NCBI GenBank assembly: GCA_026182355.1
Contig: JAPFBL010000102.1
Span: 62,001 to 126,000, forward strand
Direction: 5' to 3'
Source: Hermatobates lingyangjiaoensis
Lineage: Eukaryota > Arthropoda > Insecta > Hemiptera > Hermatobatidae
Length of the DNA stretch: 64,000 nt
Of this stretch, positions 1-58,450 are shown piece by piece; the stretch's first letter is position 1; each line of letters starts with the position of its first letter. Under the pieces are notes generated by a model, which ran no database searches, was not told the origin of the DNA, and was given only the letters and a program-made list of their open reading frames with translations. A program made the position numbers and the translations under genes.

Positions 1-141
1 CCTTTGGAGCGATTCACATCTTTTCCTGAAGACGAGGACATCGAAATATAGTAGTGAGTTCAGTGATTTCTTTTTTATGTGTTCTTTTAAAAATTCTAGT
101 TTATATATATATATATATATATATATATATATATATATATA
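1..141 (+). mobile_element. HHR-bearing element, family A, cut by window edge, with (TA)n tail
   Basis: The segment is nearly identical to 33690-33823. It carries an HHR-like core at 26-50: CUGAAGA, one extra C, a weak helix II, GAAA, palindrome AUAU and A at the cleavage position. The downstream tail ends in a (TA)n run at 102-141. The 5' end lies outside the window. Two near-identical copies 33 kb apart indicate a recently dispersed element. Family knowledge places such cores in Penelope-like elements; activity is not shown. Confidence 0.6.
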
Positions 142-330
142 CCATGATAAACGAAAAACAGTCCAGCAGGACAGATAACAGTTAAAATAAACAGTGACAC
201 ATAGACTGAAACTTAACAAAAGACTCACTTTTAAATATTTCAATATTTCAATCAATGGCGGTCGTCCTCAGGAGAAGAAGTGAATTGACGGAGGGAAGAC
301 AGTCAACTCTTGACTGTCGACGACAGTTGT
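142..330 (-). mobile_element. HHR-bearing element, family B2, minus orientation
   Basis: This is the reverse-strand relative of 24140-24318. It has an HHR-like core at 242-271 (CUGAGGA, extra C, degenerate helix II, GAAA, AUAU, U). The element's 3' tail faces the (TA)n at 102-141, so it forms a composite with the family A copy on the other side of the same TA tract. Helix II is damaged, so catalysis is doubtful. Confidence 0.5.
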
Positions 331-1098
331 TGAAGGTTTAATTTCAATATTAAACATTTAGGTAATTTGTTAAAAAACAATTCTTGATAAATGAAAGCAA
401 ACTTCTTAATAAAATATTATTCCTTAACAGAAAATTTTAATTTATTTTTTGTTATTATTTTATTGTAGTCATTTATTGCATGCTTTAATTACACATTTTG
501 TAGAATATTAATTAACTTACTGCAATTATTTCCGAAGGAGAATATTCTTCAAAGGAGAATAATATACTGTCTGGAGAACTATATCTGTTCATTTATTATG
601 ACTGTGTGAAATGATTTATTTGTCAAAGCCATGAAAGACATGTAGATATTAAAAAGACAAAAAATGAAATATAATTTATTTAAGCAACAAATTAAGTAAA
701 AAATTAAAACATTAAAAATAAACGTTGAAATGACTTTTTTAGCTTGATTTCTCTTTTAATGATTATGTTTGTAGGTTGTCCAAAAAAAAAATTACTTATT
801 ATAGATGTACCAGTAAAAATTTGTAATGTTCATTGAGATTTAGTTCCTGAAGATAATTTTACAAAACAGTTGTATGATCTGATTATATATGTATATTATA
901 GCATTATTCTATTCTATATGATCTATTCTAATTGATTTAATAATGAGAATATTCTATATTATTTTATCATACTCATCTAATTCTATGTATATAGTTTATA
1001 TGATTCTATGGGATTATATGTGATCTGGTCTATAATTTCTGTTTTTCTAAAAACATAAGATAAATAAGCAGTAGATAAATTCTAACATATAGATAATA
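331..1098. other. AT-rich sequence, nothing recognised
   Basis: Very AT-rich sequence with short homopolymers and no sustained reading frame. No repeat relationship to other parts of the window was noticed. Confidence 0.4.
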
Positions 1099-1360
1099 TA
1101 TGATCCGCTTATTTTGAAAGTGGCCTAATTCCATTTATGTTGAAATCGAGATATTTAAGGGTTTGCGTTTTACAAAATTTAAAAATATTGTCATTTTATT
1201 TATCAACTAATTTTTGTTATAAAAATTCTTAGTAATTTTAAATAAATTTTGTACAATTTGCTGCAAAAGGTAAAGATAACGTAAAAATGTAATTATTTAA
1301 ATAGCTAGCTAAATTTTTTTCGAAAATGGAATTAGGCCACTTTCAAAATAAACGGCTCAT
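1099..1360. mobile_element. MITE-like element with ~30-bp terminal inverted repeats
   Basis: The left end (about 1105-1134) and right end (about 1325-1354) are inverted copies sharing TTATTTTGAAAGTGGCC and the following TAATTCCAT, with one or two mismatches. The 190-bp interior is AT-rich and non-coding. Size, long TIRs and lack of an ORF fit a non-autonomous DNA transposon. The superfamily is not clear; a TA target is possible. Confidence 0.7.
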
Positions 1361-1780
1361 ATCTGAGTCTATGAAATTTGTGCTATATGATTCTACTCTA
1401 TGTGGTCCGTTTGATATAACACTATTCCGTATGATATATTGTATGTGAAACTCTTCTATATGATTTGATCATATAAGAATTCTAAAGATATTAGTTTGGT
1501 TTTATCTTTTTGAATAATTTAATTTATTTATTTATATTAACAAATAATTATGCGTTTTCTAAGTATTATAAAATTTTAACTTCTTCGGAACTAAAATATT
1601 AACTATTTAATAGAGTCAATAATTAAAAACTATTAATGTATAAACTATAATGATATATTTTATATGAATCTATCATATTCTATGATTATTCTATAATTTG
1701 TAATGAATTGTATGTGTGCATTATAACTCATTATAATACATACATACAATTAATGATATTTATATTATAGAATGAAGTTC
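1361..1780. other. AT-rich sequence, nothing recognised
   Basis: Contains loosely repeated short strings resembling 'ctatatgat' between about 880 and 1690 on both sides of the MITE, suggesting decayed short tandem structure. No ORF. Confidence 0.3.
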
Positions 1781-2000
1781 TATTCCCAGTTTCTTGATAT
1801 GGGACTTCAGGTTGTTCAAAGTTCTTGTTGATCCTAGAAAGAGCATATCTTGCTGTTCCGGTAATCTAGATCTGCTCTAGCGCAAATGTCACAATTCATG
1901 GTTGAATTTATTCTATCTATGGTAGGTTTTTTTCTACTACTCGTAGAGATTTAGTGCTACAATACACTTTGTTGATCAGTCGCACAATGAAAATCGTTAG
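1781..2000 (+). repeat. Dispersed repeat copy 1 (pairs with 3150-3370)
   Basis: Shares an ordered series of blocks with 3150-3370: a start near GGGACTT, a block around AGAAAGAG-ATAT, a block around AATATCACAATTCATG, and a block ending near TTGATCA. The two copies are direct repeats about 1.37 kb apart and diverged. No reading frame or known family was recognised. Confidence 0.6.
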
Positions 2001-3149
2001 TGCTTTTTTACAGGAGATGTGAATATTTAATACAGATGAGTAAATGGGTGGCATTGATATGTTGTTAATCATAGCACGTTTACAAAGAATTGAAATGTTA
2101 TTCTTTAGCCTTTATAATATGTGGGTCTTCAAGTAAAACACTGCTACAGAAACAAAGTTAGTACTCAGAGTATTTTCACTCTTACATTATAGATTAAAGA
2201 GAATAAATAGTCTTTAACGAAAGTGGTGTAAATGGAAATTCATTATGGGTTTGAAAATGGTCGCAGCAGTCATTTTGTTGGGGTCATTTATTTAGTTTGA
2301 AAATCTGTTTTTATCCCTTCATGGTGCGTGTCTATTCTCCCAGTCAAAGTATATTAGATTGGGTGGTTCAAAGAGAAAAACGCTTTAAGAGGACTCAGTT
2401 AAATTGATCACTGAATACTTGATGTCGAAAACAATTTTACTGAACTCTTTGCCGCTCTTTCAGCCAATTAAATTCAAACGGTTGAAAGAAAACAAAGCTG
2501 AAATTCATTTTGAGAGAACAGTAAAATAAAACTTTAACAAAAAAAAAATAAAAGAAAAACATACCAAAACACATAATTGGATCTTTTAAGAATTATTATT
2601 TCAATTCGGAGTATTTTTTTTTCAAATCGTTTTTGTTCAAAACAGTTACAAACTCATTTACACATTGTAAATTTTGATGAAATAACATTTTAGGGGAAGG
2701 AATTCCTCAGTTATTTGAAACAAATTTCATTTCACAATATCATTTTGTAGCATTTATATGTAGATTTTCATGTCAAAAGCAGAAATTTGTAATATAAACT
2801 GTTCTTCAGTAAAATTAATTGCATTCAACCAATTATCTACTATGTTTATTTTTAATTACTCATTTCAATCTGTTTATGACGCATACAAAAGCAGTTCAAA
2901 TTTTATTAAGTTCTGAGGTATATTTCACTATTTTTATCATTTTAGTACTATTACATAGGTTATTTAACAAGAAAATAATTAAAAAATTGATATTATTCGA
3001 ATTAGTTTAGATAAGTTTAATTTGCTTTTAGTTTCCATTAAATTGAAATAGTTATGGTATAATTAAAATTTGCCCATCAGAATGTTAGTATTATTTGAAG
3101 ATAATATATTTCTTTATATGATAGCATCATACCTTCCATGGAGATGATG
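2001..3149. other. AT-rich sequence between the two dispersed repeat copies
   Basis: No recognised gene or element. Because copies 1 and 2 are direct repeats bracketing it, this could be the interior of a decayed element with long terminal repeats, but no primer-binding site, polypurine tract or coding remnant was seen. Confidence 0.3.
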
Positions 3150-57530: not shown

Positions 57531-57540
57531 ATTCTCATTT

Positions 57541-57725
57541 CAAAGATGGCTTTAGGAAAGAGTTGAAACATGTTGTCAGTAGGGAGTATGTTATCTAGTT
57601 CAGATGCAATTACAAAAAAGTTATTCAGGAAGACAGAGAAACTTAACAAGCGGCAAGTTCTACAAATTACGATTATATTTTTAATAATATATGGTTACAG
57701 GAAGGACTGTTACCAAAATTAACAA
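57541..57725 (+). mobile_element. Old family K copy
   Basis: Decayed ribozyme 57541-57574 (first box lost; helix II GGCUUU/AAAGAGUU; GAAA; ACAUGU; U), then FRKTEKLNKR-coding remnant with upstream stops, then the tail TTTTTAATAATATATGGTTA and ACAGGAAGGACTGTTACC. Confidence 0.5.
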
Positions 57726-57909
57726 ATGTATATGTTCATTATATACATTAAAGGATATTTTATTATACCTCTATTTTATTTTTATGAAAGATGCCACTTG
57801 GACAACGACTATATTGATTAACCCCCGATTATTATTATTCTTATTATTTGAGGGTGACTTTTGCGCTGCGTCTTAAAAAAAAAAACTATTGGACTTCCCC
57901 TCTTCTTTA

Positions 57910-58281
57910 CTAAAGTACCCCAGCAGTTAGCTTCAACGCCTCCAAGAAGTTCAGAACTTTTGCTGGTTCCAGCGGTAAAAGTTTTTCTATGGTTTTGTTG
58001 AGTGTACCGTAGCACCTACGTCGGTGCAGCAAAGTTGTCTTACAGTCACTCAGCAGGTACAACGGTATTTCTTCCTCTTTTTTAAAGAATCTGCACAAAC
58101 CATCATTGATAATGTCTATTGATAATGGCTCCCTACTTTTCAGGAGAAAGTAACTTTCTTTCTCCTTATTCTGGAGTAACCTCCGATAGAAGGAAATTGG
58201 TTTAAAAGCAAATGTACGATCATCAAAGCCGGGACTGCAGTTAACTTCAATGAAACAATTCTTAAAGATGAACTGCAACAT
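57910..58281 (-). CDS. Unrecognised 123-codon ORF with coding-like composition
   Basis: The most protein-like long frame in the window: GC content above its flanks, charged residues well spread, segments such as NCSPGFDDRTFAFKPISFYR, LCRFFKKEEEIPLYLLSDC and LLPLEPAKVLNFLEAL. No domain is recognised. Near its C-terminal end GGGG|TACTTTAG gives a stop, and a GT there could also be a weak donor, so it might be an exon rather than a whole ORF. A decayed HHR (58384-58415, -) lies 100 nt upstream on the same strand, so origin in a mobile element is equally possible. Confidence 0.35.
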   Translation of the reverse strand: MLQFIFKNCFIEVNCSPGFDDRTFAFKPISFYRRLLQNKEKESYFLLKSREPLSIDIINDGLCRFFKKEEEIPLYLLSDCKTTLLHRRRCYGTLNKTIEKLLPLEPAKVLNFLEALKLTAGVL

Positions 58282-58299
58282 GTCTACACTAATTTATGC

Positions 58300-58450
58300 A
58301 TATATAAATGTATATATCACTATATATTTTTTCTTTATTCATCGAAGTTAGGTTGAGCATCAAACAGTAAAACACCATTAAACCAATGTTTCTTCAATAT
58401 TTTTAGACATCTTCAGGACAACATCAAAGTAAAAATTAATCACAGTAACA
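58300..58450 (-). mobile_element. HHR-like element, family H
   Basis: Core 58384-58415 (-): CUGAAGA intact, extra U, helix II GUCUAA/UUGAAG partly paired, GAAA, decayed ACGUU-type helix III (ACAUU), then GG. Helix I GUC-type is weak. A TA-rich stretch follows at 58290-58330. Confidence 0.45.

Follow-up and report, generated by a model that had tools for sequence, protein, structure and literature searches.

Hammerhead ribozymes (HHRs) were reportedly described in Penelope-like elements (PLEs) by Cervera and de la Pena in 2014, and small PLE variants that cleave as dimers are said to have been reported by Lunse, Weinberg and Breaker in 2017. Here we report on putative ribozyme cores of this kind, and on the short inverted elements that carry them, in a 64,000-nucleotide (nt) stretch of the genome of the hemipteran Hermatobates lingyangjiaoensis (assembly GCA_026182355.1, contig JAPFBL010000102.1, positions 62,001 to 126,000; hereafter the window). 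In excerpts of two accounts, PLE hammerheads are of type I with helix III missing or reduced (PMC7761336, PMC7229834). Minimal PLE-type hammerheads themselves are already published, and in large numbers according to excerpts of three sources (PMC7229834, PMC7761336, PMC6155905), one of which gives 126,247 hammerhead motifs for the axolotl genome (PMC7229834). The cores in the window resemble them in the CUGANGA/GAAA core, the type I layout, the missing or reduced helix III, the large copy numbers in an animal genome and the association with PLEs.

Three further systems bear on how such elements insert. PAc, the protein of the Anolis PLE Poseidon, cuts and extends both strands, prefers AT-rich DNA and initiates reverse transcription (RT) at two internal sites that delimit a 30-40 bp 'tail' (PMC11167929). 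The elements described below appear to share with it a hammerhead by the start of the open reading frame (ORF), two internal RT starts, AT-rich targets and the cutting and extension of both strands, although, unlike the PAc element, the B, AUAU, and AAUU copies are devoid of a PLE ORF in the pieces examined; the head-to-head pairs seen here are undiscussed for PAc in the available part of that paper (PMC11167929). Excerpts of a study of Adineta vaga Penelope describe inverted pseudo-long terminal repeats (pLTRs), most commonly head-to-head, with a ~31-bp tail optional on one pLTR (PMC3846280). Mostly head-to-head inverted pLTRs with a tail on one were likewise found here, but the rotifer elements are kilobase-sized and ORF-bearing, with no ribozyme mentioned in these excerpts, whereas those in the window include tiny non-coding ones. 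Metazoan retrozymes, as portrayed in excerpts of PMC7229834, are also small, non-coding and equipped with type I hammerheads, but they form tandem arrays with canonical hammerheads, in contrast to the head-to-head pairs and minimal cores of the window. In the literature passages covered by a narrow search, tiny non-coding pairs flanked by TA and ending unequally did not come up, which is weak evidence of novelty.

The heptamer CTGANGA occurs 30 times on the plus and 35 times on the minus strand of the window. A strict descriptor (CTGANGA, 0-2 nt, a helix II of at least 3 bp and GAA) recovered 23 cores, 18 of them followed by a palindrome of 4 or 6 nt starting with A, and 13 of these 18 with a helix I of 3 bp or more as well. 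The corresponding means in 60 dinucleotide shuffles of the window were 1.25, 0.02, and 0.00 (maxima 7, 1, and 0), and the reversed window yielded 2, 0, and 0. When the letters of the core were permuted 180 ways with one insert, CTGANGA gave 21 sites and 18 palindromes, the runner-up scoring 5 and 0. One inserted nt was evident in 20 of the 23 strict cores and in all 18 palindrome-bearing ones, the other 3 having none. These counts confirm the presence of hammerhead-like cores in the window and agree with the original prediction, made from the letters alone, that CUGANGA, an extra nt, helix II, GAAA, a palindrome, and usually a free H at the cleavage position recur in this order; the four sites that it singled out (51330-51359, 48829-48859, 26357-26388, and 20109-20141) are as it described them. 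Its figure of about 40 cores in about ten families holds for traced copies, since tracing by eye and BLAST delivered 48 arms under 13 labels, but not for intact ones: 25 arms combine a 6/6 core, GAAA, a helix II of at least 2 bp and a palindrome, and 23 of the 48 miss at least one of these features. Rfam covariance models do not see these hammerheads; a search of the window with Rfam 15 returned none at the gathering threshold and none at E<=10.

We also applied the strict descriptor to twenty 10-kb stretches, drawn at preset positions from the same 910-Mb, low-GC, microsatellite-rich genome (hereafter the sample). It identified 51 sites, 38 with a palindrome, in 14 of the 20 stretches, against 5 and 0 in the reversed control; one of the 38 (L069 9221) is chance-like. 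The inserted nt was single in 44 of the 51 sites, missing in 5 and double in 2. A narrow pattern of one family, F1, detected 920 copies genome-wide (446 + 474) and none in the reversed control. Extrapolation from this small 200-kb sample anticipates ~1.7e5 strict sites (bootstrap 0.9-2.6e5), about one per 5 kb. Given 38 palindrome sites in twenty other stretches, the window does not stand out within its genome, and hammerhead richness belongs to the genome as a whole rather than to the window locus. The whole-genome check suggested in the original prediction, run on these stretches, thus upholds its 'large, diversified ribozyme population' outside the window, but not as a feature of this particular locus. 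That the cores are a chance or low-complexity artefact might be argued from the AT-rich, repeat-laden window and from the origin of the 18 sites in fewer independent families; however, shuffles, reversed sequence, permuted cores, the register tests below and the independent sample, with 38 sites versus 0 reversed, are all contrary, which leaves this explanation a practically negligible probability.

Pairing was scored in 14 representatives, a set picked after looking in which the AGGCCU and F7 pairs are related families. Helix I formed 49 of 56 standard pairs in the canonical register and 17-25 of 56 in the seven other registers obtained by sliding it from -3 to +4, while helix II formed 46 of 56 with one inserted nt after A9 and 25, 13, and 18 of 56 with 0, 2, and 3. 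Re-dealing the 3' strands among families 20,000 times gave at most 44 pairs for helix I and 43 for helix II, against the 49 and 46 seen, which favors covariation across families. Two representatives (41430 and 28985) pair poorly in helix II. As expected for type I, CUGANGA and GAAA are split by helix II, with the extra nt before it. This nt is U, A or C among the representatives; excerpts of PMC3705267 describe a like unpaired nt between A9 and helix II in the plus-strand hammerhead of a viroid, chrysanthemum chlorotic mottle viroid, where A moderately slows and U speeds trans-cleavage 3-4-fold. Helix III is the 4- or 6-nt palindrome alone in 13 of the 14 representatives, rather than a closed helix. 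Helix I lies directly beside C3 and N17 overall but is weak in most AUAU copies: next to the core it comprises 0-2 bp in 11 of 14 and 4 bp in 3 of 14, and some of these copies have a longer complementary stem farther out (e.g., 21 bp at 25076). Together, shuffles, permuted cores, registers, covariation, and the reverse transcriptase ORF of F1 support the reading, put forward in the original prediction, of the cores as putative minimal type I hammerheads of the PLE kind with a tiny palindromic helix III.

The link to Penelope comes from F1. Its arms carry an ORF start, NKSFGELLYILPERWKSIVRKLEK..., that stops at KYTN or 37 nt sooner, on (TA)n. A protein search with this ORF start returned 26 relatives and a profile search 391; among the 120 listed of the 391, 71 had the motif LLPxY, which ran straight into IYIY, that is, (TA)n, in 48 and into another dinucleotide repeat in 3, ended the match in 8 and continued otherwise in 12, two of them as NLRVHDP/NFRLHDP. 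Outside the window, in the same genome, locus L051 harbors a 526-aa stop-to-stop ORF (938-2515) matching RVT_1 (E=3.4e-11) that lies 5' of an F1 hammerhead arm at 728 on the same strand; by this arrangement of predicted features F1 is a PLE. No reverse transcriptase was found within the 64-kb window, whose sequence by itself did not reveal the PLE origin. The F1 ORF start had no match in PDB or in viral contigs, and the family B pattern had 0 matches in the latter. A generic F1-like pattern matched four viral contigs (L001-L004, GC 48-62%), two of which, L002 (62% GC) and L003 (48% GC), show a good helix II and may be either chance or genuine matches. In the related F1b copy at 48829-48863, a start codon is readable within the helix III palindrome (acAUGu).

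Several families (B, AUAU, AAUU, and AGGCCU) are tiny non-coding elements that end on (TA)n and look like miniature inverted-repeat transposable elements (MITEs). Measured to its long 3' end from the position 17 nt upstream of C3, family B is about 130 nt long, and the aligned arms of these four families contain no ORF, longer genome relatives not having been sought. At least four TA units adjoin the tail end in 30 of 54 arms and the head end in 3 of 54, over a background of 3.2%. Neighboring arms with gaps of up to 200 nt made up 27 close pairs in the window: 12 head-to-head, with 11 joining like-labeled arms; 11 tail-to-tail, with 8 joining different labels; and 4 tandem, every one between different labels. 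Shuffling strands produced means of 6.9, 6.8, and 13.3, respectively. The 50 B arms of the sample gave 22 head-to-head, 2 tail-to-tail, and 1 tandem arrangements, and the 100 listed F1 places genome-wide gave 9 head-to-head neighbors within 3 kb and 1 tandem. From these orientations, a head-to-head pair would seem to represent one insertion event, and tail-to-tail neighbors other elements that entered the same (TA)n afterward. Neither the TA-tract ends nor the head-to-head pairs figured in the original prediction.

The two arms of a pair usually differ at their 3' ends. In family B arm coordinates (q, with predicted cleavage at q52/53), these ends fall at q84-94 or q113-129 in the window and peak at q94 (14 times) and q129 (18 times) in the sample, where a few strays occur at q29, q33, q76-90, q102, and q113-128; within pairs, the short end is roughly 35 nt shorter than the long one. 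One long and one short end were scored in 28 of 32 scorable head-to-head pairs of B and F1 (B sample 16/19, B window 5/6, F1 genome 6/6, F1 window 1/1), P being about 1e-5 under independent 50:50 ends. The short/long (S/L) cut-offs derive from copies in the window, so its 7 pairs do not test the rule independently, and 22/25 outside the window is the cleaner figure. Inverted pLTRs, one of which may bear a 30-40 bp tail, are therefore a trait of both F1 and B.

Annotators may file such hammerhead elements as MITEs, and inverted pairs of about 200 bp with TA flanks and no coding capacity are indeed what would be expected of foldback DNA transposons that have long terminal inverted repeats and duplicate a TA target, the hammerhead match then being incidental. 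Their outer ends, however, lie at two positions and are unequal in those 28 of 32 pairs, instead of forming fixed terminal inverted repeats; the same layout recurs in unrelated families and in F1, which has a reverse transcriptase ORF; and the covariation in the hammerhead register would be left unexplained. We regard a DNA transposon origin as quite improbable.

We consider it probable, instead, that these are PLE hammerheads located at or near the 5' part of PLE RNAs, that the non-coding families are mobilized in trans and that insertion proceeds by priming on two strands. A PLE protein would cut AT-rich DNA, mostly (TA)n tracts here, on both strands, and each cut 3' end would prime RT on an element RNA; of the two start sites, which lie ~35 nt apart, the outer would serve one end and the inner the other. 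Both cDNA copies would then reach the RNA 5' end just past the hammerhead and be joined there, rendering (TA)n <-tail-HHR:HHR-tail-> (TA)n, and other families could later insert in the same (TA)n, giving tail-to-tail neighbors of different families. The B, AUAU, AAUU, and AGGCCU families would probably be moved by PLE enzymes, as suggested by the anatomy that they share with F1. The fixed position of both ends favors two separate priming events, and the pair at 49331-49592, which joins two different AUAU hammerheads, hints in this one case at two RNAs per head-to-head pair. Because very short elements repeat the same anatomy many times, the two-strand, two-start-site model becomes countable and testable.

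Excerpts of the rotifer Penelope study favor self-priming for inverted pLTRs (PMC3846280), by which a hairpin snap-back on the antisense template would generate the head-to-head pairs. Some junctions here have a short gap or none, and snap-back, or deletion, could explain the 2 of 50 sample arms that stop at q29 and q33. Self-priming predicts variable stops, whereas the shorter arm usually ends at one place (222-226 nt after C3 in F1, q81-94 in B), and we deem it unlikely. The elements might alternatively be metazoan retrozymes, non-autonomous units spreading via hammerhead-made circular RNAs: they are small, AT-rich and non-coding with a type I hammerhead, and PLE enzymes have been proposed as retrozyme movers in excerpts of PMC7229834 and PMC7761336. 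Yet retrozymes are tandem repeats, and same-label tandems account for 0 of the 27 close window pairs; they bear canonical hammerheads, and helix III is here the palindrome alone; and 48 of 50 sample B arms begin before the cleavage site. This origin appears very improbable.

Several observations weigh against PLE-driven priming on two strands. In the TA test, 24 of the 54 tails have no adjoining TA run, and the list of arms behind the TA and orientation counts was curated by hand. The long/short rule was broken by three sample pairs, two S/S and one L/L, and by one L/L pair in the window; three more from the sample, whose ends lie at q29, q33, and q102, and the L021 pair were unscorable, and the ACGCGU, AAUU, 49331-49592, AGGCCU 43219/43572, and 43.8-kb pairs were left out of the scoring, the AAUU pair being long/short and 49331-49592 short/short by eye, and ACGCGU ambiguous. 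The 3' part of B bears no visible resemblance to the F1 tail, and B has no sequence tie to any particular PLE, which is why trans-mobilization is argued from shared anatomy. For F1, Pfam matched no GIY-YIG endonuclease; CYIGS...LSRR, seen by eye alone, may represent this domain. Trans-mobilization, two-strand priming, dimer folding, and cleavage are all steps that we infer.

The position of arm starts speaks to the role of the hammerhead, which is described as unknown in excerpts of PMC7761336. Of the 50 B arms in the sample, 48 have their start within q1-q44, 2 at q77/q81 and none at the predicted cut, while 2 of 18 window B arms start near it (q51, q55). The use of cleaved RNAs as templates is thus unsupported, B arms starting mostly upstream of the predicted cut; as most inserted copies keep sequence 5' of this site, cleavage would not be needed to make the template. 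PAc, for its part, inserts even with a dead hammerhead (PMC11167929). Computed energies of a dimer versus two monomers favor the dimer by 2.6-10.3 kcal/mol for four 6-nt palindromes and by 0.5-1.1 kcal/mol for ACGU, whereas the AUAU and AAUU dimers lose by 2.4-2.8 kcal/mol. It is conceivable, though distinctly unlikely, that the palindromic hammerhead is retained chiefly for dimerization: helices III and I would pair two RNAs and hold their 5' ends together, the dimeric ribonucleoprotein would prime both strands and lay the copies head-to-head with the junction at the hammerhead, and the non-coding families would be minimal two-RNA PLE passengers that mimic MITEs. Coordinates of the arms, pairs, and cores are compiled in Table 1.

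Table 1. Hammerhead-bearing arms, head-to-head pairs, and cores in the window
Feature	Position	Strand	Remarks
F1 (PLE) arm	51210..51552	+	hammerhead about 51326-51363 (ACGU), ORF start; short 3' end, 223 nt after C3, then (TA)n
F1 (PLE) arm	50665..51037	-	head-to-head partner of 51210..51552; long 3' end, 260 nt after C3, LLPKYTN then (TA)n
F1b arm	48800..49000	+	hammerhead 48825-48863 (ACAUGU), PLE-like ORF start
Family B arm	24625..24740	-	AGAUCU, long 3' end
Family B arm	24737..24830	+	short 3' end; head-to-head with 24625-24740
Family B arm without hammerhead	24837..24866	-	3' end q113 (long class)
Family B arm	24868..24985	+	long class; head-to-head with 24837-24866, L/L exception
Family B arm	32457..32544	-	short 3' end
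Family B arm	32548..32663	+	long 3' end; head-to-head with 32457-32544
Family B arm	33057..33172	-	long 3' end
Family B arm	33177..33264	+	short 3' end; head-to-head with 33057-33172
Family B arm	7831..7922	-	short 3' end
Family B arm	7931..8009	+	starts near predicted cut (q51), long 3' end; head-to-head with 7831-7922
Family B arm	8034..8162	-	tail-to-tail with 7931-8009 over (TA)n
Old family B arm	20987..21059	-	short 3' end
Old family B arm	21138..21242	+	long 3' end; head-to-head with 20987-21059
Family B head-to-head pair	43845..43990	.	right arm cut down to about 20 nt
Hammerhead core, ACGCGU family	20109..20141	-	
ACGCGU-family head-to-head pair	28611..28830	.	
Hammerhead, family F8 (ACGU)	26352..26392	-	
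Hammerhead, family F7 (ACGCGU)	53849..53892	+	
AAUU-family arm	8148..8302	-	hammerhead at 8242
AAUU-family head-to-head pair	49015..49310	.	
Head-to-head pair, two different AUAU hammerheads	49331..49592	.	hammerheads 49393-, 49513+
AGGCCU-family arm	43219..43376	-	hammerhead at 43316, 7-bp helix I; ends on (TA)n
AUAU-family arm	1..101	+	tail-to-tail with 177-309 at (TA)n 102-141
AUAU-family (d) arm	177..309	-	
AUAUc-family arm	32141..32281	+	hammerhead 32201; ends on (TA)n
AUAUd-family arm	24135..24282	+	hammerhead 24195; ends on (TA)n
AUAUb-family arm	24977..25116	-	hammerhead 25076, 21-bp outer stem

Two of the nine palindrome families listed in the original prediction, ACCGGU and AGCGCU, display the layout without a consensus core and were left uncounted because of their non-consensus core bases. 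The core position reads UUGAGAA in the ACCGGU set (45946 on the minus strand, 46403 and 47061 on the plus strand) and ACGAAGA in the AGCGCU pair (arms 22417-22518 and 22521-22622). The ACCGGU hairpin sits in a region of nested inverted and direct repeats (45355-47652; about 650-986 nt, 99-100% identical) in which a 151-aa ORF is present three times. The palindrome at 22417-22622 has 102-nt arms, 94% alike and separated by 2 nt, each with AGCGCU and the hammerhead-like layout. A tandem array at 30745-31662 consists of about 10 copies of a 91-nt unit with 97% matches, no hammerhead core having been noted in the unit shown. Searches of the window found no tRNA, Pfam gave nothing above cut-offs for 14 window ORFs, and a search with the ORF at 57910-58281 gave no relative. 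At 17320-17433, an AUAUc hammerhead is joined to a family B 3' part, a chimera that perhaps arose by template switching. Sub-threshold Rfam matches to microRNAs at 24684-24807 (MIR7504, 73 bits) and 32498-32593 (mir-580, 52 bits) coincide with head-to-head B pairs, which indicates that foldback elements can mimic microRNA precursors.

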